From Endomicrobium sp. (GTDB taxonomy: Bacteria; Elusimicrobiota; Endomicrobiia; Endomicrobiales; Endomicrobiaceae): a DNA stretch of 38,777 bases. The notes beneath the pieces were generated by a model that made no database searches, had not been told where the DNA came from, and saw only the letters and a list, made by a program, of their open reading frames with translations. Both the position numbers and the translations under genes were made by a program. The stretch lies in the NCBI GenBank assembly GCA_031290155.1, contig JAITOB010000012.1, positions 1-38,777 on the forward strand, given 5' to 3'. Shown piece by piece: positions 1 to 38,660 of this stretch (position 1 is the first letter of the stretch; each line of letters opens with the position of its first letter).

Positions 1-2
1 AT

Positions 3-932
3 AGTGGGCAAAGTGGTCTTGAAAAACTCGCAACTATGCCTAAAGTAGATATAGTTTTAGCTGCTGTTGTCGGTTCAGTTGGTTTAAAATCAATAATAGC
101 GGCGATAAAAGCAAAAAAAAACGTTGCTCTTGCCAATAAAGAATCTCTTGTTATGGCGGGAGATTATATAATGAAACTTGCAGCAAAGAACAACGTTTCT
201 GTTCTTCCTGTAGACAGCGAACATTCGGCGATATTCCAATGCTGCGCTGGAGAGAAAAAAAACCAAATAAAAAAGATAATACTCACAGCTTCCGGCGGAC
301 CTTTTTATAAGTATAACGGTGATTTTTCTAAGATAACTGTTGAACATGCTCTAGCTCATCCTACTTGGAAAATGGGTAAAAAGATAACAATAGACAGTGC
401 TACGCTTATGAACAAAGGACTTGAAGCCATAGAGGCGTCAATTCTTTTTGGAGTTCCGATAGATAAGATTGAAATAGTTATACACCCACAGTCTATAGTA
501 CATTCTATGGTAGAGTATGTTGACGGATCTGTTATAACGCAATTGTCAAACCCTGATATGAAGCTTCCAATACAGTATGCGTTGACGTACCCTGAGAGAT
601 TAAAATCTAATATAAAGTTTCTAAGCCTTACTGACATTGGTAGACTTGAGTTTTATAAGCCAGATTTTGATAAATTTCCATGTTTGAAATTAGCATATTT
701 GGCGGCTAAAAAAGGAGGCGCGTTGCCTACTGTTATGAATGCGTCTAACGAGATTGCAGTAAAGAATTTTTTGGATAAAAAAATAAAATTTACAGATATT
801 GCAAAAATAGTTGATAAAACAATGAAGGCTCATAAAGTTTCAAACAATATGTTAGTGGAGGATTTTTTTGAAGCAGACTCTTGGGCAAGAGTTTATGCGC
901 ACAATTTAATAGAAAAGGAATTTAAATTATGA
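3..932 (+). CDS. dxr: 1-deoxy-D-xylulose 5-phosphate reductoisomerase, 5' end outside window
   Basis: DXR (IspC) catalyses the NADPH-dependent rearrangement and reduction of DXP to MEP, the committed step of the non-mevalonate isoprenoid pathway, in the cytoplasm. The open frame runs in from the left edge, so about 309 of roughly 385 residues are visible and the ATG at 36 is internal. Counting from that Met, seen motifs are NKESLVMAG (34-42), PVDSEHSAIFQ (58-68, with the Asp and Glu metal ligands), TASGGPF, the GKKITIDSATLMNKGLE block and HPQSIVHSMVEY in the substrate domain. The C-terminal domain (TVMNASNEIAV) is complete. The stop overlaps the rseP start (ATGA at 929-932), so the two are translationally coupled. 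No damage seen. Confidence 0.97.
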   Translation, partial: SGQSGLEKLATMPKVDIVLAAVVGSVGLKSIIAAIKAKKNVALANKESLVMAGDYIMKLAAKNNVSVLPVDSEHSAIFQCCAGEKKNQIKKIILTASGGPFYKYNGDFSKITVEHALAHPTWKMGKKITIDSATLMNKGLEAIEASILFGVPIDKIEIVIHPQSIVHSMVEYVDGSVITQLSNPDMKLPIQYALTYPERLKSNIKFLSLTDIGRLEFYKPDFDKFPCLKLAYLAAKKGGALPTVMNASNEIAVKNFLDKKIKFTDIAKIVDKTMKAHKVSNNMLVEDFFEADSWARVYAHNLIEKEFKL

Positions 933-1999
933 CGATAATTATTCAGATACTTGGTATATCCATAGGTTTTGGATTTTTGGTTTTTATACATGAGCTAGGA
1001 CATTTTCTTGCAGCAAGAGCGTGTAAAGTCAGAATACTAACTTTTGCTTTTGGCTTTGGTCCAGATCTAATAAAGCATACTCATAATGGTACAAAATATT
1101 GTATCAAGACAATCCCATTTGGTGGTTTTGTCTCCATGGCAGGTGATAATGCTGATACAGCTACAGGAGCTGCTGATGAATATTTATCTATGAAATGGTA
1201 TAAGAAAGTATTTATATGTTTTACAGGACCCATCTCAAACTATATTTTGGCTATATTTTTATTTGCTTTTGTATTTAGTATTTGGGGTGTTACTACTATT
1301 TCAAAAACATCTTCGATAGGCGGCGTCGTAGAAAATAAACCTGCAGCCCAAGCCGGAATTATAAGTGGAGACAGAATAAAGTCTATAGACGGAGTAGCAG
1401 TAAACACATGGCGCAAAATGATGGAAAATTTAAAAAATAAAGCCGACAAACAAGCTGTTTTTGCAGTTGAGCGAGGCACCTATACTTTTGATGTAACCAT
1501 GACTGTGGATAAAAACCCTGTAACTGGTGCGGGTGTTATTGGGATAGCTCCTTTAATAGAAAAATCAGAAGCTGGTTTTTTGAAGTCTGTTTACTTGGGC
1601 GTGGAAGAGTCTGCAGTTCAAACTTTTCTAACAGTTGCATATCTTATTGACAAACTACTTTCTTTAGAAAAACCTGATATTTCTGGACCTATAGGGATAA
1701 TGAAGTTAATGGGTGACAGAACTAAGTCAGGCATAGCAGATTACTTGAAGTTTCTTGCCGTTATATCTGTGGCTTTAGGTATGTTTAATTTATTTCCTAT
1801 CCCAATGATTGACGGTGGCATGATAGTTTTGTTTGTTATAGAAGGCATAATTAGAAAGCAAATAAGCACAAAAGTCGTGCAGATTTACAACACTATAGGT
1901 TTGATTTTTGTAATTGGAATTTTTGTTTTTGCTACATATAGCGACCTGTTAAGGTTGGGCGTCGGCAAACTCTTCGGCAAGCAAGGGCTTGGTTTTTGA
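929..1999 (+). CDS. rseP: RseP-type site-2 intramembrane zinc metalloprotease
   Basis: Membrane-embedded site-2 protease that cleaves transmembrane substrates such as anti-sigma factors and remnant signal peptides. The first membrane segment carries the zinc motif HELGH at residues 21-25. A periplasmic PDZ domain lies at about 110-190 (GVVENKPAAQAGI, then GDRIKSIDGV). The third catalytic element appears as NLFPIPMIDGG near 292-302, where the Asp is the expected third zinc ligand. At 356 residues with one PDZ domain it is the short form of the family. It overlaps dxr by 4 nt, an arrangement common in bacteria (dxr-rseP-ispG-proS). Substrates in this organism cannot be read from the sequence. 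Confidence 0.95.
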   Translation: MTIIIQILGISIGFGFLVFIHELGHFLAARACKVRILTFAFGFGPDLIKHTHNGTKYCIKTIPFGGFVSMAGDNADTATGAADEYLSMKWYKKVFICFTGPISNYILAIFLFAFVFSIWGVTTISKTSSIGGVVENKPAAQAGIISGDRIKSIDGVAVNTWRKMMENLKNKADKQAVFAVERGTYTFDVTMTVDKNPVTGAGVIGIAPLIEKSEAGFLKSVYLGVEESAVQTFLTVAYLIDKLLSLEKPDISGPIGIMKLMGDRTKSGIADYLKFLAVISVALGMFNLFPIPMIDGGMIVLFVIEGIIRKQISTKVVQIYNTIGLIFVIGIFVFATYSDLLRLGVGKLFGKQGLGF

Positions 2000-2092
2000 G
2001 TTTATGCTTCGCCGCCGCAAGCGTCGCCTAAATTTAAAATACATCGCTCTTGTTAGTTTGTTTTGAGCTTACGCTTTATTTAAAAGGACAAT

Positions 2093-2856
2093 ATGTCTAA
2101 TGTTTATAAAGATAGAAATCAAGAAATTGACGAACTAAAAGAGGAGATAGATAAATATGTCCTTTTAGTAAAGAGTTGATAAAAGAATTGCAAGAGTATT
2201 ACCGTATAGATTTTGCTTATACGAGCAATGCTCTTGAAGGAAATTCTTTAACCGAGTCCGGGACAAAAGTTGTCATTGAAGATGGACTTACTATAGGGGG
2301 TAAGTCAATAAGAGAGCATAACGAAGCTCTCGGACACAGCGATGCTTATACTTTGCTCGAGAAACTTGCAAGTAATAATACAATTACTGAATCTAATATT
2401 CTTGAGCTGCACAGGCTTTTTTATTTTAGAATAGATGAAAGCAAAGCAGGAAAATATAGAACTGAGCAAGTTTTTATCTCAGGAACCGATTATTTGCCTC
2501 CAAAATGTGGTGATGTTCCTAAACTTATGAAGGAGTTTGTTGATTCACTACCACAATTAAAAGAAGAAGCATTACATCCAGTGCATTATGCTGCTAAAGT
2601 TCACGAGAGAATTGCAACGATTCACCCTTTTAGCGATGGAACTGGTAGAACGGCACGACTCGTTATGAACCTTGCTCTATTTCAGTCGGGATATCCCATT
2701 GCTATAATCCCTCCGATACTAAGGAGCGATTATATATCTGCCATAAGACTGGCTAATAAATGTAATGTAGAGTTATTTTATAACTTCATATCAAATGTTG
2801 CGTATGAAAGTGCAAGAGATTACGTCAGGCTATTGAAGTATTATAACGGTAAGTAA
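2093..2856 (+). pseudogene. Fic-domain protein (class II type) with a -1 frameshift near its N-terminus
   Basis: Fic enzymes usually transfer AMP to target proteins. Reading starts at ATG 2093 behind AAAGGA (2083-2088) and gives an N-terminal stretch (residues 1-22, ending DELKEEIDKY) typical of this family. It then drops out of frame at about 2159-2160 and stops at 2177-2179. The next frame continues the homology immediately (PFSKELIKEL, from 2161), so one base is missing. The remainder holds an inhibitory-helix motif SNALEGN, matching (S/T)xxxE(G/N) of class II Fic proteins, and the catalytic loop HPFSDGTGRTAR. The usual Asn of DGNGR is Thr here. A TTG at 2176 could restart a shortened protein but has no spaced ribosome site. 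It sits between rseP and ispG, ending 1 nt before the ispG start. Confidence 0.85.
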
Positions 2857-2857
2857 A

Positions 2858-3955
2858 ATGAAATTATATAAAAGAAATCAAACTAGAAAGATAAATATAG
2901 GCGGTGTTATTATTGGTGGCGGCATGCCTATTGCTATTCAGTCTATGACTAATACAAACACAAAAGATTGGAAAGCAACCGTAAAACAAATAAAGCAGCT
3001 TGAAGAAGTTGGTTGTGAAATTGTAAGAGTTTCTCTCCCAGATATGGAGTCTGCTTATAATGTAAGCAAAATAAAAAAGAATATAAAAATTCCTTTGGTT
3101 GCAGATATTCATTTTGATTACAGAATAGCTTTAGAAGCAATAAGGCAAGGTGTAGATAAATTAAGAATCAACCCTGGAAATATCGGCTCAAAAGACAAAG
3201 TTGAAATTTTAGTAAAAGAAGCTAAAAAAGCTCATATTTCGATAAGAATTGGTGTAAATGCAGGATCACTAAAAGAAGTTCATAATTTCCATGACAATGC
3301 TTCGCGTGTTAAAGCCCTTGCCAACGCGGCAATGGAACATGTAAAGATTTTAGAAAAGCATGATTTTTTTGATATAGCTGTTTCATTGAAAGCTTCAAAT
3401 ATTGATACAACGATTCAAGCGTATAGAATTTTTGCTTCAAAGAGAAATTATCCGTTGCACTTAGGCATAACTGAATCAGGTTCAATTTTCAGTGGGACGA
3501 TAAAGTCTTCGGCAGGACTTGGTATCATGCTTTACGATGGGTTAGGTGACACGGTGAGAGTATCTTTAACTGCTGATCCTGTTGAAGAGGTAAAAGTTGC
3601 GTATTCTCTACTACAATCTTTAGAGCTTAGAAGCTCAGGGATAGAAATAATTTCGTGTCCTACTTGTGCAAGGACTCAAGTTGATTTGATAAAAATAGTT
3701 TCAGATATAGAAAAGAGAGTATCTACAATAAAAAATTTAAGAAAATTGTCTAAACCAATAAGAGTTGCGATTATGGGATGTGTTGTCAATGGTCCTGGTG
3801 AAGCAAAAGATGCTGATTTTGGTATAGCTGGTGGCAAAGTAGAGGGAGTTTTATTTAAAAATGGCGAAATTGTCGGGAAAGTAAAAGCTGATAAATGGGG
3901 GCAAAAGCTTGTTTCTATGATAAAAGATCGCCTAAGCGATATTTTACAGGAGTGA
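2858..3955 (+). CDS. ispG: 4-hydroxy-3-methylbut-2-en-1-yl diphosphate synthase
   Basis: IspG (GcpE) reductively converts MEcPP to HMBPP with a [4Fe-4S] cluster, the penultimate MEP-pathway step; it partners with dxr at the head of this block. The 365-residue protein has the N-terminal TIM-barrel (QSMTNT, then VADIHFDYRIAL, RINPGNIG) and a C-terminal iron-sulfur domain with CPTC at about 267-270, a third Cys at about 308 in MGCVVNGPGEA, and the following Glu that completes the ligand set. The ATG is 1 nt past the fic stop and has only a poor ribosome site (GGTAAG), so expression may depend on ribosomes leaving the fic 3' end. Looks fully functional. Confidence 0.97.
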   Translation: MKLYKRNQTRKINIGGVIIGGGMPIAIQSMTNTNTKDWKATVKQIKQLEEVGCEIVRVSLPDMESAYNVSKIKKNIKIPLVADIHFDYRIALEAIRQGVDKLRINPGNIGSKDKVEILVKEAKKAHISIRIGVNAGSLKEVHNFHDNASRVKALANAAMEHVKILEKHDFFDIAVSLKASNIDTTIQAYRIFASKRNYPLHLGITESGSIFSGTIKSSAGLGIMLYDGLGDTVRVSLTADPVEEVKVAYSLLQSLELRSSGIEIISCPTCARTQVDLIKIVSDIEKRVSTIKNLRKLSKPIRVAIMGCVVNGPGEAKDADFGIAGGKVEGVLFKNGEIVGKVKADKWGQKLVSMIKDRLSDILQE

Positions 3956-3959
3956 AAAA

Positions 3960-4424
3960 ATGGCAGAGATTTATTTGACAAGAGACGGCAGAGAAAAACT
4001 TATTAAAGAGTTGGAGGATTTGCAAAAAAGGAAACCTTTGATTCAAGATGAGATTGCTAGATCACGCGAACATGGCGATTTGAAAGAAAATGCTGAGTAT
4101 CATGCTGCAAAAGAGACTTTGACAAATCTCATGCGTAGGATAATGGAGTTGGATTCTAAAATATCGAGTGCAAAAATTATCGAAGATCAAAATATAGAAC
4201 CTGATAAAGTTTTTATAGGTGTTACTCTTACTATACAGGACGAAGATGGTGACGATTATGAATATACTGTTGTGGATTTGGAAGAGGCAGACCCGTCAGC
4301 AAATAAAATATCGGTACAGTCTCCTCTTGTACAAGGACTGCTTGGACACAAAGCTGATGAAACTGTAGAAGTTGAACTTCCTGTAGGCAAAAAGAAGTTT
4401 AAAATACTGAAGATTTCAAGATAG
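3960..4424 (+). CDS. greA: Transcription elongation factor GreA
   Basis: GreA binds the RNA polymerase secondary channel and stimulates cleavage of backtracked RNA. At 154 residues it has the standard size: an N-terminal antiparallel coiled coil (about 1-75) with the tip acidic region around residues 37-46 (EHGDLKENAEYHAAKE), then the FKBP-like C-terminal domain (SPLVQGLLGHKADETVEVELP). The start lies 4 nt after the ispG stop with AGGAG (3949-3953) as ribosome site inside the ispG end. It is part of the same transcription unit running into proS. Confidence 0.96.
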   Translation: MAEIYLTRDGREKLIKELEDLQKRKPLIQDEIARSREHGDLKENAEYHAAKETLTNLMRRIMELDSKISSAKIIEDQNIEPDKVFIGVTLTIQDEDGDDYEYTVVDLEEADPSANKISVQSPLVQGLLGHKADETVEVELPVGKKKFKILKISR

Positions 4425-4475
4425 TTTAATGACCTTCCGCTTATAGCGCTAAAAGAATAATAGATAGAGGTATTT

Positions 4476-6179
4476 ATGTTTTTCACGAAAATGTTGATTC
4501 CTACTTTAAGAGAAGCTCCTTCAGACGCAGATATCATATCTACAAAACTGATGATAAGAGCAGGAATGATACGTAAGTTGGCATCTGGACTCTATGAATT
4601 TTTGCCGTTGGGTTTAAAAGTTTTGAGAAAGGTTGAAAATATAATAAGGGAGGAAATGAATGCTGCAGGTGGACAAGAGATAACCCTACCTTTAATATTC
4701 CCTAAAGATTTATGGATTGAGACTGGCAGATGGAATGTTTACGGCAAAGAACTTTTCAGACTTAAAGACAGAAAAGAAGCTGAATTTTGTCTAGCTCCTA
4801 CGGCAGAAGAAGCTGTTACGGATTTAGTAAGAAAAGAAGTTAAGTCTTACAAACAGCTTCCTTTGATGTTGTATCAGTTCGGCACTAAGTTTAGAGATGA
4901 AATACGTCCACGTTTTGGTATTATGCGTTCAAGAGAATTTTTAATGAAGGACGCATATTCGTTTCATACAGACGAAGCTGATTTAGAAAAATATTATAAA
5001 GTTATGGTTGACGCTTATACCAATGTCTGCAAAAGATGTGGTTTTGAGTTCCGTGCCGTAGAAGCTGCTTCAGGTGCCATAGGTGGTTCTTTTTCCCACG
5101 AATTTATGATTTTGGCAGATACTGGCGAGGAAGAAATTGTATGGTGCGGTTGCGGTTATGGTGCAAATAGCGAGAAAGCAGAATGGCTACCGTTGCTGCA
5201 GACAAAAGAAGAGCCTTTGATTTTGGAAGAAGTATTGACTCCTAATGTTGGAGCTGTTGAAGACGTTGCGAAATTTCTAAATGCATCACCTGAAAAGTTT
5301 ATTAAGAGTATTGTATATAAAGTCGACGGTAATCCTGTAGTTGTTTTGGTAAGAGGGGATCATGAAATAAATGAGATAAAGCTTCAAAGCTTGCTTGGCG
5401 CAACTGAAGTTGTCCTTGCCGATGAGCAGACAGTTATCGCGGTAACCGGAGCACCTTTGGGCTTTGCAGGTCCTGTAGGACTTAAAGGTGTCAAAATTAT
5501 CGCTGATTTATCTGTGGTTGAAATCTCAAATGCAGTTGCCGGAGCAAATAAAAAAGATTATCATCTTAAAAACGTAAATTACAAGAAAGATTATAATGCA
5601 GATCTTATAGCCGATGTAAGAAAAGTTGCGCACGGAGATATATGCCCGAGATGCAAAAAAGAAAATTTGAGATTTTCAAGAGGTATTGAAGTAGGACACG
5701 TTTTTAAACTTGGAACAAAATACTCTAAATCTATGAATGCTACGTATCTAGACACAAACGGTAAAGAAAATCTTATAGTGATGGGTTGTTACGGCATAGG
5801 GGTTACAAGAATTCTAGCTGCTACTATAGAGCAATCCCACGATGACAACGGCATAGTATGGCCTGATAATATAGCTCCTTTCAACGTAGTAATAATACCT
5901 ATAAATTACTCCGATGTAAAAACTAAAGAAACAACAGATAAACTTTATAAAGATTTAACTTCAAAAGGCATAGATGTTTTGATTGATGACAGAGACGAAA
6001 GAGCTGGCATAAAGTTCAAAGATGCTGACTTAATAGGTATTCCATACAGAGTAACAATTGGCGAGAAAAATCTTGCAAATGGTAATGTGGAGTTAAAGAC
6101 AAGAAATGGTAGCAAGGATAGTTCTAGACTTTTAAAACCTGAAGATGCTATGTTGGAAATTGTAAAAATATTTAGTTGA
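4476..6179 (+). CDS. proS: Prolyl-tRNA synthetase, bacterial type
   Basis: Class II synthetase charging tRNA-Pro. The 567-residue length and an inserted editing domain (INS/YbaK-like, about residues 230-390, where misacylated Ala-tRNA-Pro is hydrolysed) mark the prokaryote-type enzyme. Visible class II motifs include motif 2 (RDEIRPRFGIMRSREF), the downstream LMKDAYSFH and motif 3 (MGCYGIGVTRILAA). The C-terminal anticodon-binding domain is present (about 470-567). ATG 4476 follows TAGAGG (4464-4469). It closes the dxr-to-proS block; the next gene belongs to a different kind of locus. Confidence 0.97.
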   Translation: MFFTKMLIPTLREAPSDADIISTKLMIRAGMIRKLASGLYEFLPLGLKVLRKVENIIREEMNAAGGQEITLPLIFPKDLWIETGRWNVYGKELFRLKDRKEAEFCLAPTAEEAVTDLVRKEVKSYKQLPLMLYQFGTKFRDEIRPRFGIMRSREFLMKDAYSFHTDEADLEKYYKVMVDAYTNVCKRCGFEFRAVEAASGAIGGSFSHEFMILADTGEEEIVWCGCGYGANSEKAEWLPLLQTKEEPLILEEVLTPNVGAVEDVAKFLNASPEKFIKSIVYKVDGNPVVVLVRGDHEINEIKLQSLLGATEVVLADEQTVIAVTGAPLGFAGPVGLKGVKIIADLSVVEISNAVAGANKKDYHLKNVNYKKDYNADLIADVRKVAHGDICPRCKKENLRFSRGIEVGHVFKLGTKYSKSMNATYLDTNGKENLIVMGCYGIGVTRILAATIEQSHDDNGIVWPDNIAPFNVVIIPINYSDVKTKETTDKLYKDLTSKGIDVLIDDRDERAGIKFKDADLIGIPYRVTIGEKNLANGNVELKTRNGSKDSSRLLKPEDAMLEIVKIFS

Positions 6180-6217
6180 AATCATCTATAAAAATTGAAG
6201 AAAATAAAAAGAATTGT

Positions 6218-7567
6218 ATGCTAAATAATATGAATAGAATGGCAATCCCAGAAGAAAACATTAAAATAATGAAGGAAAAGAGATATATTGATAAAAATGT
6301 TTATGACGCTACTAATGAACGGTTAGATATTATTTTTAATGATTTTAAGAAGATATATGTTTCTTTTAGCGGAGGAAAAGACAGCGGTGTTTTATTAAAT
6401 ATGTGCATTGATAAAGCACGAAAATTTAAACGTAAAATAGGATGTTTGTTTATAGACGTAGAAGCATTTTATGCGGTAAGTGCTGATTTTGTAGAGAGAA
6501 TGATATTTAACAATTTAGATGTGTTAGAGACATTTTGGGTATGTCTGCCTATGAAAAGCCCAAATTCTTTAAGTTATTTAGATCCTACTTGGATATGGTG
6601 GGATAAAGACAAGAAAAAGATTTGGGTTAGAAAAATGCCACAAAATGAATTTGTAATTAATGAGAAAAATAATAATTTTGGCTTTTATGAACAAAATATG
6701 TTGTTTGAGAGATTTATAAAGTCTTTTGGCGTTTGGTATGGGAAAGGAGAGAAAACAGCTTGTTTACTTGGACTGCGGACAGATGAGAGCTTAAATAGAG
6801 TTAGAGCAATTTTTTGTGACAAAATAAAATATAAAGATTTGAATTATTCAACAAAGGTAAACGAAGTAACATATAATTTTTGTCCTCTATATGATTGGAC
6901 AGTGTTAGACATATGGACTTACAATGCAAAATTCAATAAAGATTATAATAAATTATATGACTTGTTCTACAAAGCCGGAGTAAATATTAGCAGAATGCGG
7001 CTTGACGAGCCTTTTGGCAATTCAGCTAAAGCTGGATTAAGTTTATTTAAAATTATTGAACCACAAACTTGGAGCAAAGTTGTAAACAGAGTTAGTGGGG
7101 CAAATTTTGACAATATTTATAATGTAAACAAAATAATGAGCAGTGCATATACTCTGCCTAAAAATCACACATGGAAAAGTTTTACTAAATTCCTATTAAA
7201 GACAGTGCCTGTTGAAACAGCAACTACGTATAGACACAAATTCGTTAAATTTATCAAATATTGGCACAGAATCGGATGTCCTGTAGTGAGTGAGGATGTA
7301 AAAATTTTAGAAAATAAATATGCAAAGTATATTATAAATACTCACAAGTATAGCAATAGAGGTACAGGAGACAAAGAAGTAATTAAGTTTAAAAGAATTG
7401 TTGATGAGTTACCTGGACTTGACAATAAGTGCGATTATTTGACTTGGAGAAGAATGGCGATGTGTATAATTAAAAATGACATTATATGTTACAGCTTATC
7501 ATTCTCAATAACAAAAGACTTAACTTTACGTCAAAAAAAATTAGTAGATAAGTATAAAAATTTGTAG
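6218..7567 (+). CDS. PAPS-reductase-like protein with DUF3440-type C-terminus (IbrA-like)
   Basis: Adenine-nucleotide alpha-hydrolase-like protein of the PAPS reductase superfamily. The ATP-PPi loop VSFSGGKDSG lies shortly after the conserved N-terminus KRYIDKNVYDAT. The C-terminal part (about the last 60 residues, TWRRMAMCIIKNDIICYSLSF) resembles the domain that defines IbrA-like proteins. IbrA with IbrB was described in E. coli as controlling immunoglobulin-binding (eib) genes, and related pairs occur in phages and islands. The biochemical activity is not established to my knowledge. The frame is intact across about 449 residues. The start is uncertain: TTG 6176 (overlapping the proS stop), ATG 6218 and ATG 6269 all lack a good ribosome site; 6269 fits the family N-terminus best. 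A ParB-like partner follows 30 nt downstream. Confidence 0.85.
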   Translation: MLNNMNRMAIPEENIKIMKEKRYIDKNVYDATNERLDIIFNDFKKIYVSFSGGKDSGVLLNMCIDKARKFKRKIGCLFIDVEAFYAVSADFVERMIFNNLDVLETFWVCLPMKSPNSLSYLDPTWIWWDKDKKKIWVRKMPQNEFVINEKNNNFGFYEQNMLFERFIKSFGVWYGKGEKTACLLGLRTDESLNRVRAIFCDKIKYKDLNYSTKVNEVTYNFCPLYDWTVLDIWTYNAKFNKDYNKLYDLFYKAGVNISRMRLDEPFGNSAKAGLSLFKIIEPQTWSKVVNRVSGANFDNIYNVNKIMSSAYTLPKNHTWKSFTKFLLKTVPVETATTYRHKFVKFIKYWHRIGCPVVSEDVKILENKYAKYIINTHKYSNRGTGDKEVIKFKRIVDELPGLDNKCDYLTWRRMAMCIIKNDIICYSLSFSITKDLTLRQKKLVDKYKNL

Positions 7568-7597
7568 GATATTTAATTTTTATTATAGGGAGATTTT

Positions 7598-8122
7598 ATG
7601 TTTAGGAGTCCTGTATATGATGTTATAGCAGTTAAGGTCAGTAAAATCGAAGCAAATAATTATAATCCAAACAAAGTTGCGCCTCCGGAAATGAAGTTAC
7701 TATATGAAAGTATCAAAAACGACGGATACACAATGCCAATAGTTTGTTATTATGACAAAAAAAAAGACAAGTATATAATAATCGACGGTTTTCATCGTTA
7801 TACTATAATGAAACAATATAAAGATATTTATAAACGAGAAAAGGGAAAACTTCCGGTAAGTATAATTAATAAAGATTTAAGTGATAGAATGGCAAGCACT
7901 ATAAGACACAATAGAGCAAGAGGAAATTCTGACGTTGATTTAATATCTAGTATAATAGCAGAACTTATAGAAATAGGAAAAACTGATTCTTGGATATCAA
8001 AACATTTAGGTATGTCAGTTAATGAAATCTTAAGGTTAAAGCAGTTAACAGGACTAGCTTCTTTATTTAAAGATTATAAATTTTCAAAGTCATGGGAACC
8101 TGGTGAAGTAAAAAAGCGATAG
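7598..8122 (+). CDS. ParB-like nuclease-fold protein (IbrB-like partner)
   Basis: A 174-residue protein with an N-terminal ParB/sulfiredoxin-like domain: residues 13-50 (VSKIEANNYNPNKV, then LYESIKNDGYTMPIVCYY), the GFHRY motif at about 65-69, and RHNRARG near 104-110. A helix-turn-helix-like segment (ISKHLGMSVNEILRLKQLTGL) follows. This combination next to a PAPS-reductase-like gene is the IbrA/IbrB arrangement. ATG 7598 follows AGGGAGA (7587-7593), a good ribosome site. It has no partition partner (ParA), so a plasmid-segregation role is unlikely. Both genes are intact although most accessory genes in this window are broken, which suggests recent arrival or selection. Confidence 0.83.
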   Translation: MFRSPVYDVIAVKVSKIEANNYNPNKVAPPEMKLLYESIKNDGYTMPIVCYYDKKKDKYIIIDGFHRYTIMKQYKDIYKREKGKLPVSIINKDLSDRMASTIRHNRARGNSDVDLISSIIAELIEIGKTDSWISKHLGMSVNEILRLKQLTGLASLFKDYKFSKSWEPGEVKKR

Positions 8123-8270
8123 AGCAAGATTACTAGATAATCATTCAACAGCTTTTGTTTAAACTTAAACCATTTTATTAATTATAGTATCATCAAATTG
8201 TTTTGTCGTTTTTGTTTTTGCTCTTTTATGCCTTTTTAATAATTTAATAATAAATTGGAGTGTAATAAAA

Positions 8271-9689
8271 ATGAAGAATTTTTTTAAACTCAAAGAAAAC
8301 AATACTACGATCTATACTGAAATAATAGCTGGTATAACAACGTTTTTTACAATGGCGTACATAATTTTTGTAAATCCTACTATTCTTTCTCTTAATCCGG
8401 GGATGCCTTGGTTTGGCATCTTTGCTGCAACAATTTTCGCTTCGGCTTTTGGAACCATAGTAATGGCATTGTTTGCAAATGTTCCTTTTGCTCTGGCTCC
8501 TGGAATGGGCGCCAATGCATTCTTTACGTTTGTGATATGCAAACAAATGGGTTTTTCATGGCAAGAAGCTTTGTTTATCGTAACAATATGTGGATTGTTT
8601 ATTATTTTAATTACCGTGACGGAACTTAGAAAAATGATTGTTAAAGCAATACCGGATTTTCTTAAAGATTCTATTAGCGGAGGAATCGGATTATTTATAG
8701 CTTATATAGGTTTCAAAAATGCTTCTTTTTTAAAGTTTCTTTCCGATTCAGGCAGCTATAACATTTTGGATAACGGAAGCATTGTCGTAAACAGCTCTGT
8801 CGTGCCGTCTTTGGTATCGTTTAACAATGTGCATGCATTGTTGGGGCTTATAGGTCTTATAATAATGTCTTTGCTTGTTATAAAAAAAGTTAAAGGTTCA
8901 ATTTTTATAGGAATAGTTGCAACTATTCTAATAGGTATTACTATGGGTGTAGTTGACCTTTCAAATGTTAAACTTTTTGATTTCCATTCTCTAGGTGCGT
9001 TAAAAGATGTTGCTTTTGCTGCTTTCAGCCAAGAAGGTATGGGATCTCTTTTTTCTGATTTGAACAAGATAATTCTTACGATAACTGCAATACTTGCTTT
9101 GTTGTTATCTGTAACTTTTGATGCTATAGGCACATTTATAGGTGCAGGCAGAGTAAGCGGAATTTTTGATACTGAAGAAGAAAAGAATCTTGCAAATAAA
9201 AAAGGCATAAATTCAAAATTTGAAAAGGCTTTGTTTTCGGACGGAATTGCCGCAGCATTCAGCGGTCTTTTCGGTACAAGCAGCGTTACGACTTATGTTG
9301 AAAGCACAGCCGGAATATCTGCAGGCGGTAGAACAGGGTTGACTTCATTGGTTGTTGCGATATTATTCTTGCTTTGTCTTCCTTTCGCATCACTTTTCAG
9401 CATAGTTCCTCCAGAAGCTACGGCACCGGCGTTGATTATAGTAGGGGTACTTATGATGTCGTCGGTCATGAAAATCAATTGGTCAGATTTGGAGCAGGCT
9501 GTTCCTGCTTTTTTGACGATAAGTATTATGGCTTTTGCTTTTAATATAAGCTACGGAATTGCCGCAGGATTTATATTCCACTGCATTATTAAACTTGCTC
9601 GCGGAAAAATAAAAGAAGTTCATCCTATCTTGGCAGGTACGGCTCTTCTGTTTTTAATTAACTTCGTTATAATTGCAATTAGAGGATAA
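8271..9689 (+). CDS. NCS2-family purine permease (AzgA/PbuG type)
   Basis: Inner-membrane nucleobase transporter of 472 residues with about 12-14 hydrophobic segments. The N-terminus (TEIIAGITTFFTMAYIIFVNP) and the ANVPFALAPGMGANAFF signature are diagnostic of the AzgA branch, which imports hypoxanthine, guanine or adenine by proton symport. SVTFDAIGTFIGAG and GTSSVTTYVES correspond to the substrate-site repeats. ATG 8271 follows TTGGAGTG (8256-8263). The 148-nt AT-rich upstream gap shows no purine-riboswitch core. Uptake of host or co-symbiont purines would fit a reduced genome. Exact substrate cannot be told from sequence. Confidence 0.92.
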   Translation: MKNFFKLKENNTTIYTEIIAGITTFFTMAYIIFVNPTILSLNPGMPWFGIFAATIFASAFGTIVMALFANVPFALAPGMGANAFFTFVICKQMGFSWQEALFIVTICGLFIILITVTELRKMIVKAIPDFLKDSISGGIGLFIAYIGFKNASFLKFLSDSGSYNILDNGSIVVNSSVVPSLVSFNNVHALLGLIGLIIMSLLVIKKVKGSIFIGIVATILIGITMGVVDLSNVKLFDFHSLGALKDVAFAAFSQEGMGSLFSDLNKIILTITAILALLLSVTFDAIGTFIGAGRVSGIFDTEEEKNLANKKGINSKFEKALFSDGIAAAFSGLFGTSSVTTYVESTAGISAGGRTGLTSLVVAILFLLCLPFASLFSIVPPEATAPALIIVGVLMMSSVMKINWSDLEQAVPAFLTISIMAFAFNISYGIAAGFIFHCIIKLARGKIKEVHPILAGTALLFLINFVIIAIRG

Positions 9690-9690
9690 A

Positions 9691-11031
9691 ATGGGTTCAC
9701 CCGTATACGACATTGCCGTAATAGGCTCGGGTCCTGGTGGTTTTTCAGCCGCTGTAATGGCTGCTCAGTTAGGTGCAAAAGTAGTTTTAATAGAGAAATC
9801 TTTCATAGGAGGAGCTTGTCTAAACTGCGGTTGTATGCCGACTAAGTTTTTATGGCAGGTGTTAAAGTTAAAACAAAAAATCCAAAAATCTTATGAATAT
9901 GGTTTTAAAGCAAATCTTGACTCTATTGTTTTTGCTGATATAGTGAACAAAAAAGATAGAAATATCGCCAATATCAGAAAAGGAATGGAGTTAATATTGG
10001 CTTCTTATTATATAGAAGTTGTTAAAGGTTTGGCATCTTTCAAAGATAAAAATACTCTTATGGTTTTAAATGCCAAGAAAACTTCAGAGATTATAGCTGA
10101 TAAAATAATTATTGCATCAGGAACAAAACCTTCTTCAACCAAAAATTTTGATTTTGATGGAAATAAAATAATCAGTTCAACGGACGCGTTGAGTCTCACG
10201 CAGATTCCCGAAACAATACTAGTTATCGGCGGTGGAGCGATAGGTATTGAGCTGTCAACTATCTTTGCAGGTTTTGGGTGTCGAGTAACTCTTGCAGAAT
10301 GTGAAGGACAATTGCTTCCAAACGAAGACAGTGAAATTTCTGAAGAAGTAAAAAAGAACTTATCAAGACAAGGAGTAGAAGTACTTACATCTTGTGTAAA
10401 TGCATTAGATAATGTTGATAAATATGAAAAAATATTGATAGTAACTGGAAGATCTCCTGTCAACGATTTTGGTGTGGATAAAGTTGGCATTAAAACTACG
10501 CCAAAAAGGTTTATAGAGACTAATGAATTTTGCCAAACAAATATAGAAAATATTTATGCTGTTGGCGATATTGCAGGTAAAAATTTGCTTGCCTACACTG
10601 CTCAAAATGAAGGTTGCATAGCCGCAGAGAATGCTGTTAAAGGTAACTCTTCGGAAATAAATAATAAAGTCATTCCCCAAGCAGTTTTTTCAATGCCTCA
10701 AAGTTCTTCTGTAAAAGTATACGATTATTTGCAGTATAAAGAAGTAGTTTTTGGTAAATTTCCATTTACTGCAAGTGGCAGAGCTTTTATTGAAGGAGAG
10801 CGTACAGGTTTTGTCAAATGCGCTGTAGATAAAGTTACTCAAAAGCCTTTGGCTTTTTGGTTAGTTGGCGCCCATGCTGACGAATTAGTAAATACTGCTT
10901 CGCAAATATTGGCAAGTGGCATAAATCATATATACAGAGAATCAATGTTTCACCCATCCCTTAGTGAAAGTTTGTTAAACGCTTATGAAGATGCTTTGGG
11001 AAAGTGTGTAGAATTACCAAAGAAATATTAA
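9691..11031 (+). CDS. lpdA: Dihydrolipoamide dehydrogenase
   Basis: FAD-dependent E3/L protein that reoxidises dihydrolipoyl groups with NAD+. ATG 9691 is chosen because it has AGAGGA (9681-9686) at proper spacing, just before the FAD-binding IAVIGSGPGG. The redox-active disulfide loop reads CLNCGCMPTK, so the two canonical cysteines are present and the position usually occupied by Val holds a third Cys. The NAD-binding VIGGGAIGIELS, the second FAD contact YAVGDIAG, and the C-terminal HPSLSE (His-Glu catalytic pair from the partner subunit) are all there; length 446 is near normal. Followed 27 nt later by gcvT, which points to the glycine cleavage system as its client. Confidence 0.94.
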   Translation: MGSPVYDIAVIGSGPGGFSAAVMAAQLGAKVVLIEKSFIGGACLNCGCMPTKFLWQVLKLKQKIQKSYEYGFKANLDSIVFADIVNKKDRNIANIRKGMELILASYYIEVVKGLASFKDKNTLMVLNAKKTSEIIADKIIIASGTKPSSTKNFDFDGNKIISSTDALSLTQIPETILVIGGGAIGIELSTIFAGFGCRVTLAECEGQLLPNEDSEISEEVKKNLSRQGVEVLTSCVNALDNVDKYEKILIVTGRSPVNDFGVDKVGIKTTPKRFIETNEFCQTNIENIYAVGDIAGKNLLAYTAQNEGCIAAENAVKGNSSEINNKVIPQAVFSMPQSSSVKVYDYLQYKEVVFGKFPFTASGRAFIEGERTGFVKCAVDKVTQKPLAFWLVGAHADELVNTASQILASGINHIYRESMFHPSLSESLLNAYEDALGKCVELPKKY

Positions 11032-11058
11032 TCTTACTATTATAAAGGAACTGAAACT

Positions 11059-12126
11059 ATGAAGAGAACGCCTTTGTACGATGAACATGAAAAACTTGGA
11101 GCAAAGTTCACGGAGTTTAGTGGTTGGGAAATGCCTGTTCAGTATACATCAATTATTGATGAGCATACTGTGGTAAGGACAAATGTCGGCATGTTTGACA
11201 CTTCTCACATGGGTACGTTTATAGTTACAGGAGAAGATTCTGAAAAGTTTTTAAACCATGTTACTCTTGGCAATATGTCTGGACTTCCGGATAAAAAAGC
11301 AAGATATTCAATGATTTTAAACGAAAATGGTGGAATAAAAGACGATATTATTGTTTATAAGTTTGGCAAAGAGTATATGATTGTCGTAAATGCAGGAAAT
11401 CTTAATAAAGATTTTGAATGGTTGAGTAAGCATATCCAGAATATTGATGTTAAAATAGAAAATATCAGCAACGATATTTCGCTACTAGCTATACAAGGTC
11501 CAAAGGCTGTTAGTATATTGCAGAGCATAGCAGATAACGATATTACAAGTATGAAATATTTTACAGTGTCAGAATTAAAGTTAAAGATTAGTGATGCTAA
11601 ATTCTGCAGAATCGCAAGAACAGGTTACACTGGCGAAGACGGTTTTGAAATTTTTATATCAAAAGATAAAGCGTCTGAACTGTGGGAAAGATTAATAAGT
11701 CTTTCAGTAAAACCGTGCGGACTGGGCTGCCGCGATACTTTAAGGCTTGAAGCTTGTATGCCTTTGCACGGACATGAAATTGACGAAAATATAAATCCTA
11801 TTGAAGCAGGATTCCAAAAAACAATAAACTGGGAGAACGATTTTATCGGTAAAAATAAACTCCTTCCTTTAAAAGACAAACCTTTAAGAAAATTAATTGC
11901 TTTTGAATGCTTGTCAGGTATTGCCAGAAATTCTAATGAGGTTTTTCTTGGCGATAAAAAAGTCGGATATGTTACAAGCGGCTCATTTTCTCCTACTTTT
12001 AAAAAAGTTATAGGCATGGCGTTAATTGACGCTGATGTTCAATCTGACAACTTAAAAGTTGTAATTCACAATAATAAAAGAAAAATTAAAATACTTCCAA
12101 AACCGTTTTATAAAAGACAAAAATAG
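11059..12126 (+). CDS. gcvT: Aminomethyltransferase, glycine cleavage system T protein
   Basis: Transfers the aminomethyl carbon from lipoylated H protein to tetrahydrofolate, releasing ammonia and 5,10-methylene-THF. The 355-residue protein has the folate-binding fold: SGWEMPVQY near the start, DTSHMGTF, NENGGIKDDIIVY with the catalytic Asp, RTGYTGEDGFEI, and GCRDTLRLEACMPLHGHEI. The C-terminal barrel is complete. ATG 11059 follows AAAGGAAC (11044-11051). lpdA is directly upstream, but no H or P protein gene is in the window; downstream is a small unknown gene and then pseudogenes. Confidence 0.95.
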   Translation: MKRTPLYDEHEKLGAKFTEFSGWEMPVQYTSIIDEHTVVRTNVGMFDTSHMGTFIVTGEDSEKFLNHVTLGNMSGLPDKKARYSMILNENGGIKDDIIVYKFGKEYMIVVNAGNLNKDFEWLSKHIQNIDVKIENISNDISLLAIQGPKAVSILQSIADNDITSMKYFTVSELKLKISDAKFCRIARTGYTGEDGFEIFISKDKASELWERLISLSVKPCGLGCRDTLRLEACMPLHGHEIDENINPIEAGFQKTINWENDFIGKNKLLPLKDKPLRKLIAFECLSGIARNSNEVFLGDKKVGYVTSGSFSPTFKKVIGMALIDADVQSDNLKVVIHNNKRKIKILPKPFYKRQK

Positions 12127-12457: not shown

Positions 12458-13316
12458 GTGGTTTTAAATAACGAAAATACAATAAAGAAAATAAATTGCA
12501 ATGTATTACTAGAATCGTATGTAGATCAAGTTAACACTGACTTGTTTAAAGAATGGCATAAAAAGATAGTTGACGATTTTAGTGCTGTAAAGGATTTTAA
12601 AAGATTAATAACGCAAGAAGCGGAATTATTTGTTTCTAAGGGCAAAGGCTCTTTTGATGAATGTTTGAATTTTTTATTAGAAGAATATGGTTATACATGT
12701 ACATTTTTAAAAAACAGAAATATTATTTGTCCAATGCCATTTTCTAAAACCATGGTAAATTTAATTGAACGTTATAATTTAAATATTATTGATTTACCCT
12801 ATGCTCTATCAAATTATGCAAGGAAACATAGCAATGAAAGCTATATGCGTGAAATTGTGAATGAAGGAATAATATCACTTTTAAAAATATCAGATTTGAG
12901 AATTAATTTTTTCGTAATAAATAAGAATGGTAGGTAGTATATATACAAAAAATAATATTTATCAAGAAACTGTAGGAATAGTTCCTTATGCTACAGATTC
13001 TAAAGCTTGGGGAATATCTTTAGATATTATGAAAGAAAGGAAGCAAATGGTTATAGAGGAAAAGTCACCGAAAGGCAATGTCTATTTATCAGTAAAAGTG
13101 CCATTGATAGTAAAAGAAAAAGTAGAGAGAGGAATAGGGTTATCTATTAGACATAACAGATAGAAAAAAGAAAGAAGAAAGAAGATATAGAAAATAAGTT
13201 AAAGATTAAGAGAGGAAATGTACGAGAAGCAAGAGAAGTAGCACACGATATATCATCACCGATAAGTACATTAAGAGTAGTGGAATATGTATCAGAGCTT
13301 GACTCTAACTTCAAAA
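12458..13316 (+). pseudogene. PAS-domain sensor histidine kinase remnant (multiple frameshifts, ATPase domain missing)
   Basis: Three reading frames line up as one broken protein. 12458-12937 encodes about 150 residues with no recognised domain and ends RINFFVINKNG, a typical PAS opening. The frame then shifts (about 12930) and continues SIYTKN through GIVPYATDSKAW and GNVYLSVKVPL to GIGLSI near 13146. After another shift DITDRK, the standard PAS exit, appears at 13150, and after a third the frame holds a coiled linker and the phospho-acceptor H-box REVAHDISSPISTLR (about 13232-13276), where the His in AHD is the expected autophosphorylation site. Homology ends near EYVSEL (about 13305). No HATPase domain follows, so the kinase is dead. 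The 159- and 78-residue open frames here are not independent genes. Confidence 0.78.
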
Positions 13317-13327
13317 GCGGGGCTAAA

Positions 13328-14026
13328 ATGAAAAAGCTAGGTATAGTTATGTTTTTGTTTTTTGCTTCTTTAGTTTGTGCATCGGAACAAATGATTGAAA
13401 TTTCGGTTGAAGTTACCGAAATGTACGAAAACAAAGCCAGAAGTTTGGGTATGCAATTGCCAGATTCTATAAACGCGACGGAGTTTAATATTCCAGCCAT
13501 TTTGGAGTCTGGCACTTGGGGAAGAGATACAAGGTTTTCTGCGACGCTTAAAGCTTTGGAAGAAAACGGCGCTGCAAAGGTTTTATCTCAACCTAAGATT
13601 GTTACAAAATCAGGAGCTAGTGCTAATTTTATGGTCGGTGGTGAAATACCGATTGTAGCCACAGGTGTTGGTACTTCTAGCATAAAATGGAAGAAGTACG
13701 GCATTATAATGGACATTAAACCAACACTATCAAAAGATGGTAAAATTGATATTGTTATAGAACCCGAACTTTCAAGAATAGACCATTCTATACAAGTAGC
13801 AGGATATCCTGCTATCAAAAAAAGAAAAGCTTCCTCACATTTGCAAATCAAAGATGGCGACACAATGGTGCTTGCAGGTCTAATAGAAACAATGAAAACT
13901 AAAACTAGAAAAGGTATTCCTTTCTTATGCAATATTCCAGTTTTAGGAATGCTTTTTGGCGTTACGTATTATAGAGAAGAAAAAACAAATGTACTTATCT
14001 TTGTTACCACAAAACTAATAAAATGA
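13328..14026 (+). CDS. Short secretin-domain protein (type II/IV/Tad secretion family)
   Basis: A 232-residue exported protein starting at ATG 13328 with a clear signal peptide (MKKLGIVMFLFFASLVCA, cleavage probably after CASA-like ACS/E context). The rest is a secretin C-terminal domain: LSQPKIVTKSGASANFMVGGEIPI, a central VGYPA-like AGYPAIKKRKASSHLQIKDGDTMVLAGLI, then IPFLCNIPVLGMLFG and the terminal strand TNVLIFVTTKLI. Secretins form outer-membrane gates for pili or type II export. The usual N-terminal ring domains are missing, so it is far shorter than a CpaC or PilQ protein. The frame is open upstream in phase with the histidine-kinase H-box, leaving a possible longer chimera. The stop overlaps the next start (ATGA). 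Confidence 0.8.
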   Translation: MKKLGIVMFLFFASLVCASEQMIEISVEVTEMYENKARSLGMQLPDSINATEFNIPAILESGTWGRDTRFSATLKALEENGAAKVLSQPKIVTKSGASANFMVGGEIPIVATGVGTSSIKWKKYGIIMDIKPTLSKDGKIDIVIEPELSRIDHSIQVAGYPAIKKRKASSHLQIKDGDTMVLAGLIETMKTKTRKGIPFLCNIPVLGMLFGVTYYREEKTNVLIFVTTKLIK

Positions 14027-27259: not shown

Positions 27260-28265
27260 ATGAAACTAGAGAAATACAAAATATTTAATAAGTCTTGTTA
27301 TGGATTACAGGAAATAGCCAATCCGTCTATCGATGTATTGATAACAGATCCCCCCTTATGGAATTTCTTATCAAAATAATTATTGGGATAAGATTTACCT
27401 AGTAAGGAAATTTGGAAAAATTCTTTTGATGTATTAAGGTTTAGTATTTTCTTCTGTACGATTAATGCATCGTCTTATGGTAGATTTGGAGGACAGCGGT
27501 TTTATAATTAAAGATGTGCTTTTTGGTCATATCTAAATGGGACGTCTAAAAGCAGGGATGTCGCATTAGATATTGATAAAGAATTAAATGTAGAAAGTGA
27601 AATTGCGGGTGAGTATAATTATGTTCAAGGCTATAGAAAGAATAAGGTAAAAAATTATTATACTAATGGTGTAAAATATAAAAAAGATAATGTCTAAATT
27701 GGGAAGAAAATATAATGGGTGCAGATTAGGATTAAAACCTGCTTATGAACCGATAATCTTAATTCAAAAACCTATAAATAAAAATTTGACAGCAGTACAA
27801 AATATAATAAAATACGGAGTCGGGGGGGGGGATTAAATATAGAAAATACTCGAATACCTTATGCAAATGGTGAAACTGAGGTGGGACACAATCCGCATGC
27901 AAAGGGACGCGTCCCATCGAATATAATTAGAACGTAAGCATATTGTGATAGATTGATAAATTTTTTAGTTCCTAAAGTCAGACAAAATGCGGAATACTTC
28001 AATATTCATCCAACGTTAAAACCGGTTGAATTAATGGGTCATTTAGTAAAATTAGTATCTTTTGAAGACCAAATAATATCAGATCCTTTTTCTGGAAGTT
28101 GTAAACACGGGAGTCGCAAGCTTAAAAAATAAAAAATAATTTATTGGCTATGAACTTGATAGTAAATATTATGAAATCTGTGAGAGAAGAATGAAAAATG
28201 CTAATTGTGAATCATTAGGGGCAGCTTTTTTAGCGGCACTTGAATTTGTGGATTGTAAATTATGA
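27260..28265 (+). pseudogene. Beta-class DNA methyltransferase remnant of the R-M pair
   Basis: Starts at ATG 27260 (MKLEKYKIFNKSCYGLQEI). The catalytic motif DPPYG is broken by one extra C in the C6 run 27350-27355; the next frame carries on with YGISYQNNYWDK, and further shifts occur about 27390 and 27450. Later pieces read LMVDLEDSGFIIKDVLFW, GLKPAYEPIILIQKP, LNIENTRIPYANGE, HPTLKPVELMGHL and DPFSGS, then GYELDSKYYEICERRM. DPPY before FSGS is the order of beta-class N4-cytosine/N6-adenine methyltransferases. Many shifts and stops show it is dead. It contains the G10 tract listed separately. gatB begins 27 nt later. Confidence 0.8.
27822..27831 (+). repeat. G10 homopolymer inside the methyltransferase remnant
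   Basis: Ten consecutive G in an otherwise AT-rich segment, encoding four Gly codons where family members usually read GVGGLNI with two. The surrounding frame is kept across the tract. Long G runs in methyltransferase genes are classical slippage sites. Confidence 0.9.
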
Positions 28266-37870: not shown

Positions 37871-38660
37871 ATGAACAGTAAATTAAGCCCTTTTTTTAAA
37901 TTTAAAGATGTATATTTGTATAAAGGAAATGTTTTATATATAGATATTTTACAAAAGAATTCTATGATTTAATTGTAACTCCGCCGCCATATAATGTAGG
38001 GATAGAATATAACTCCAATAATGATATTTTAAATTATGATATTACTAGTCAATGGATTAAGAATTGTTATTATTGGTCAAAATAGGCGGCAGGTTAGTAT
38101 TGAATATTCCATTAGATAAAAACAAGGGTGGACAAAAAGTGTAGGAGCAGATATTACTTCAATAGCACAAAAAGTTGGTTGGAAATACCATTCAACAATT
38201 ATTTGGAACAAAGGTAATATATCAAGACGTACCGCTTAAGGTTCTTTTATGTCAGGTCAGCTCCTTATGTAATTGCACCTGTTGAATTAATAATTGTTTT
38301 ATATAAATTGGAATGGAAAAAAATGCAGGAAGTAAAATTTCAGATATAACAAAAATGAATTTATGGATTGGACAAATGGTTTATGGACATTTAATGAAGA
38401 AAGTAAAAAACGCATAGGACACCCTGCTCCTTTTCCTAAAGAATTGTCATACAGAGCTGTTAAGCTTTTTAGTTATGTTAATGATATTCTTTGATCCATT
38501 TAGTGGCAGTGGAACTACAGCATTAATCGTAGCTACGAGTAATCGTATTGGAGTTGATTTAGATATCGGTACAACATATTGCAAACTTGCTAGAAATAGA
38601 ATATTACAAGAATTAGATAATCTAGATTTGGAGATAAAAATTGGGAAAAATTTTACAAAA
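37871..38660 (+). pseudogene. Second beta-class DNA methyltransferase remnant
   Basis: ATG 37871 opens MNSKLSPFFKFKDVYLYKGN, then shifts near 37960 to FYDLIVTPPPYNVGIEYNS, where TPPPYN stands for the catalytic DPPYN (first residue changed to Thr). Shifts and stops near 38083 and 38240 follow. Recognisable later pieces are NIPLDKNKGGQKSVGADITS-like (split), GWKYHSTIIWNKGNISRR, GLWTFNEESKKRIGHPAPFPKEL and DPFSGSGTTALIVATSNRIGVD. The order, catalytic motif first and then the AdoMet-binding FSGSGTT, marks the beta class (N4-C or N6-A). The frame stays open past 38660 only because it runs antisense through dnaN sequence. No endonuclease is seen next to it. Confidence 0.8.

Follow-up and report, generated by a model that had tools for sequence, protein, structure and literature searches.

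Why should a shrinking endosymbiont genome keep two adjacent accessory genes whole while other loci near them decay, and what might such a pair do? The question arises from a stretch of 38,777 nucleotides of Endomicrobium sp. (contig JAITOB010000012.1), here called the window. It belongs with Candidatus Endomicrobiellum, the flagellate endosymbionts of termite guts (PMC11257099). The original prediction described an intact pair of the IbrA/IbrB type among decayed neighbours. The decay is partly borne out, by pieces of N6/N4 DNA methylases at 27938-28129 and 37924-38491, broken remains of restriction-modification loci, and by a secretin domain in a shortened frame at 13280-14023, presumably what is left of a secretion or pilus locus.

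The pair itself consists of two complete, adjacent frames on the forward strand, ibrA before ibrB, lying between proS (4476-6179) upstream and a permease gene (8271-9689) downstream. The first frame had been read from position 6218; the frame is real, but that in-frame ATG is missing from the two other intact copies that we found in the genus, whereas ATG 6230 is conserved, and the start is therefore better set at 6230. So delimited, the ibrA-like gene (6230..7567) encodes 445 amino acids, with an ATP-using PP-loop domain of the PAPS-reductase class (Pfam PAPS_reduct, 2.3e-13, 51 bits against a cutoff of 22.5) and a DUF3440 region (6.8e-45, 153.5 bits, cutoff 25), and it matches phrog_2302 in PHROGs (2.2e-94). 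The protein carries SGGKDSG, and the PP-loop motif SFSGGKDS (6362..6385, plus strand, residues 45-52) is nearly or fully invariant across 83 homologues. The ibrB-like gene (7598..8122, plus strand), preceded by a putative Shine-Dalgarno sequence, AGGGAG, at 7587..7592 on the same strand, encodes 174 amino acids with a ParB/KorB-type NTP-binding domain and a helix-turn-helix. It matches phrog_2159 (1.4e-75), while its hit to Pfam ParB_N (7e-05) lies under the family cutoff. Two nucleotide-binding boxes of the ParB/sulfiredoxin fold are present on the plus strand. In the first, DGFHRY (7784..7801), residues D63, G64, H66 and R67 are invariant among 62 homologues; in the second, RHNRARG (7904..7924), R103, H104, N105, A107 and G109 are invariant and R106 and R108 are conserved in at least 90% of the same set. 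The pair has a GC content of 29.7%, lower than the 34-37% of those other window genes for which it was measured. A promoter scan was uninformative, with 22 matches where 15.6 were expected. By these sequence criteria the window pair is a member of the known two-gene accessory family IbrA/IbrB, called YbdN/YbdM in E. coli K-12, and the identification made in the original prediction stands.

Survival of the pair had been taken to imply selection, and substitution patterns agree. Between the three intact copies in the genus (the window and genomes G009 and G042), dN/dS is 0.127-0.135 for ibrA (CI 0.086-0.190) and 0.070-0.178 for ibrB, similar to the values for neighbouring vertically inherited genes (0.047-0.172) and resembling those of housekeeping genes. 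When the pairwise values are split, the window branch itself has 0.13 for ibrA and 0.07 for ibrB; neutrality would predict about 30 stop codons on that branch, and none is seen. The window protein departs from 77 strongly conserved IbrA columns at a single position, Y218C (a residue 92% conserved), and from 54 strongly conserved IbrB columns (at least 90%) at three, with the catalytic motifs kept. Judged from these comparisons, the window pair is under clear selection.

The pair has fared differently elsewhere in the genus. It occurs in 7 of the 42 Endomicrobiellum genomes (a further match, in G051, was unconfirmed by a second search and left out of the count), and four of the seven copies, in related species (G054, G023, G047 and G007), are broken by stops or frameshifts. 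The checks named in the original prediction thus favour selection on the window copy, by its dN/dS and its catalytic residues, but the frames of four other species are disrupted, and retention of the pair is lineage-specific. That most genus copies are broken could mean that the window copy is a young pseudogene or passenger that happens to be unbroken still. The low dN/dS on the window branch, the missing stops and the conserved residues have already largely refuted that explanation, to which we give very little credence.

The copies also sit in different places. The window copy lies between proS and the permease gene, those of G009 and G054 between tRNA-Leu/tRNA-Gly and der, those of G042 and G023 beside tRNA-Leu(caa), and that of G047 next to an apparent rpmE gene: four clearly different sites for six of the seven carriers, with G007 outside the site count. 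Wherever another genome allowed the proS-permease junction to be read, it proved empty, also in G009 and G042, which carry the pair elsewhere. Comparison with the empty site places the left junction at 6180..6229, so that no more than about 50 bases separate the proS stop codon from the start of the inserted unit; a stem-loop found 3' of proS in G042 is absent there. On the right (8123..8256) homology to the empty site resumes at about 8254-8257, and part of 8123-8175 is common to the window and the G009 copy. The genes beside the inspected copies include no recognisable integrase, transposase or phage gene. The window, G009 and G042 copies are flanked by ordinary chromosomal genes, and we rejected a prophage remnant, as these flanks hold no other phage genes.

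Where sister genomes have a site in common (G042/G023 and G009/G054), the pair and the genes flanking it have diverged to a similar extent, which indicates that the pair was inherited at that site and then broken in one sister. Synonymous divergence hints at a further episode. For ibrA, dS is 0.53-0.55 in all three comparisons of intact copies, against 0.54-1.49 for vertical genes, as might follow from transfer within the genus after the species split; the argument is suggestive only, because one vertical gene has an equally low dS. The source assembly adds a complication of its own. A second version of window positions 1-12125 is present in the same bin on another contig (L073, G000:C32) at 70-76% nucleotide identity, and because this block occurs twice, the assembly is probably a mix of two Endomicrobiellum species. 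The later part of the window includes gatB, which is found once in the bin, and the window contig (C11) may come from a different species than the rest.

Beyond the genus the family is widespread. Relatives of IbrA were found in 211 phage and 597 plasmid records, and pattern scans recovered the pair family in 380 genomic and 348 viral stretches, with Heimdallarchaea among the genomes; heimdallarchaeal elements are known to carry IbrA/IbrB (PMC8813620). Altogether the range takes in phages, plasmids, many bacterial phyla and Heimdallarchaea. Among 160 loci inspected closely, 80 genomic and 80 viral, ibrB immediately follows ibrA in 146 (78 and 68, respectively), bearing out the proposal of a two-gene unit; most exceptions have ibrB upstream or run into a contig end, and one (L219) shows no ibrB. 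In a phylogenetic tree all genus copies form one clade (support 100/100), whose neighbours are copies from Clostridium, Bacilli, Victivallis and Spirochaetales together with streptococcal phages. The ancestor of Endomicrobiellum would then have acquired the pair from a source related to these Firmicutes, Lentisphaerota, spirochaete or streptococcal-phage copies, after which the two genes, with no others attached, would have come to occupy different places in the genus. The original suggestion that a function in an endosymbiont would be new was accordingly overstated, given a pair so widespread and horizontally acquired.

Among the best phage matches are IbrA and IbrB of Streptococcus phage CHPC1230 (54% and 67% identity) and IbrB of Fusobacterium phage phiFN37 (68%). 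Both phage pairs are embedded in phage genomes, unlike that of the symbiont, and the phiFN37 locus additionally has a helicase gene. About 3 kb from its IbrAB genes phiFN37 also encodes a second ParB-like protein (L070, 8766-9287) followed by a queuine tRNA-ribosyltransferase, an arrangement similar to the DpdB-DpdA pair known from DNA 7-deazaguanine systems. In some phages IbrB carries an extra N-terminal part annotated as ectoine synthase-like (L071, 4335-5234), and in many viral loci the ParB domain stands correspondingly farther from ibrA.

The E. coli K-12 proteins are full-length homologues of the window proteins (YbdN 35%, YbdM 46% identity) with gene order and motifs in common, but they form a distant branch, in which YbdN is without part of the C-terminal region and YbdM has an N-terminal extension. 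In E. coli, ybdNM is under the control of CitR (PMC9068703), and IbrAB activates the prophage eib genes in strain ECOR-9 (Sandt 2002, as cited in PMC7649339). The pair might on this basis be a pure regulator, a transcriptional co-activator in which the ATP chemistry of IbrA serves metabolic sensing or is directed at a protein and not at DNA. The helix-turn-helix of IbrB and the likeness of its predicted model to the repressor KorB would suit such a role. The carriers of the pair, however, include unrelated phages, plasmids and archaea that share no target gene, and the family-wide invariance of the PP-loop active site suggests catalysis. We regard pure regulation as possible, though on the unlikely side.

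Predicted single-chain structures point to what each protein may do. The IbrB model (mean pLDDT 83.6) matches KorB, Noc and ParB across the NTP domain and helix-turn-helix, and the fold would thus be common to all four; IbrB differs in having no C-terminal dimerisation domain, and no parA partner was seen. A partition ParB (ParABS) was rejected, with TIGR00180 scoring 28.7 bits against a cutoff of 58.45. Proteins of the ParB fold can bind CTP, ATP or GTP, and which of these is bound is not yet predictable from sequence (PMC12704722). The IbrA model (pLDDT 84.9) matches PAPS reductases, ATP sulfurylase and FAD synthase over its PP-loop half only (TMq about 0.3). Nothing obvious matched the DUF3440 half, and the IbrA sequence gave no useful match among solved structures. 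A true CysH PAPS reductase was also rejected (TIGR00434, 27.3 bits, cutoff 165.1).

The original prediction had further drawn a comparison with sulfur transfer in Dnd systems, which did not survive. DndC and BrxP have a PP-loop protein in common with IbrA, and DndB also belongs to the ParB superfamily (PMC11662687), but IbrA falls far below the family cutoffs (TIGR03183 for DndC, 18.7 bits against 290.4), and the pair has proS and the permease gene for neighbours, with no dnd, ssp or other system genes. In place of the DndC-type iron-sulfur cysteine set, only C105 (94%) and C420 (99%) reach 90% conservation among the 83 homologues, and two near-universal cysteines argue against a DndC-type sulfur relay.

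Many relatives include a third gene. In 21 of 52 non-redundant genome loci and in 13 of 54 viral loci, ibrA is immediately preceded by a gene for an SNF2-type helicase of about 400 residues, assigned with a check against Pfam; in 17 of the genome loci this gene overlaps the ibrA start. A published example is Listeria lmo1309-lmo1311 (PMC5736727), three adjacent genes corresponding to ibrB, ibrA and SNF2 whose IbrA and IbrB are 41% and 57% identical to the symbiont proteins. There the SNF2 gene overlaps ibrA; the symbiont form, by contrast, is helicase-free, and a query that was positive in 5 of 5 control genomes found no SNF2 helicase of this kind in any of the 42 genomes of the genus. Our search of the literature for a link between phosphosulfate reductase, ParB, SNF2 and phage returned none. 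In most of 21 viral loci (for example L193, 8854-10215) ibrA is followed, at a distance of about 1.4-1.5 kb, by a helicase gene of a different type, DEAD/ResIII.

Phage and plasmid carriage, patchy presence and rapid decay within the genus bring to mind restriction-modification, and the pair might likewise be a cassette for phage defence or counter-defence, one that would mark DNA or shield it from restriction, or help to keep phages out, and hence would be quickly gained and lost. The SNF2 partner of its relatives resembles, at the superfamily level, helicases that belong to defence systems, such as ZorD, DpdE and DrmD, but such similarity is generic, and no nuclease or other effector gene adjoins the pair. 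PADLOC (2023) has no model naming it and returned only weak, superfamily-level matches to DndC, BrxP and SIR2. We consider a defence role doubtful.

We favour, with a probability of about one half, a reading in which IbrB positions IbrA on DNA, the purpose being modification or the control of genes. IbrB would be a DNA-binding protein of the ParB/KorB class that has a helix-turn-helix and is switched by an NTP, and IbrA a PP-loop enzyme that spends ATP on activating, by adenylation, a substrate most likely on the DNA at the position of IbrB. In effect, DNA would be modified locally or transcription would change, and mobile DNA would thereby be protected or controlled. In many relatives the SNF2-type ATPase, absent here, may remodel DNA or move along it for the pair. 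The activation of eib, the carriage by phages and plasmids and the SNF2 neighbour fit this reading and its rivals alike, and we found no biochemistry of the IbrA step in the literature. More speculatively, and to our minds improbably, IbrA/IbrB, often with the SNF2 ATPase, could be a hitherto undescribed system for marking DNA, with a ParB-type clamp to guide the PP-loop enzyme. Its two-gene core would then spread between termite-gut endosymbionts without a recombinase of its own and survive where restriction-modification dies.

For the family, the frequent SNF2 neighbour of ibrA in relatives is a concrete hint at action on DNA, and the symbiont supplies a small, helicase-free version that is testable in E. 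coli. For the endosymbionts, a bare gene pair with no recombinase in view occupies different places within an intracellular lineage, and offers evidence for selection in shrinking genomes, where useless genes disappear.
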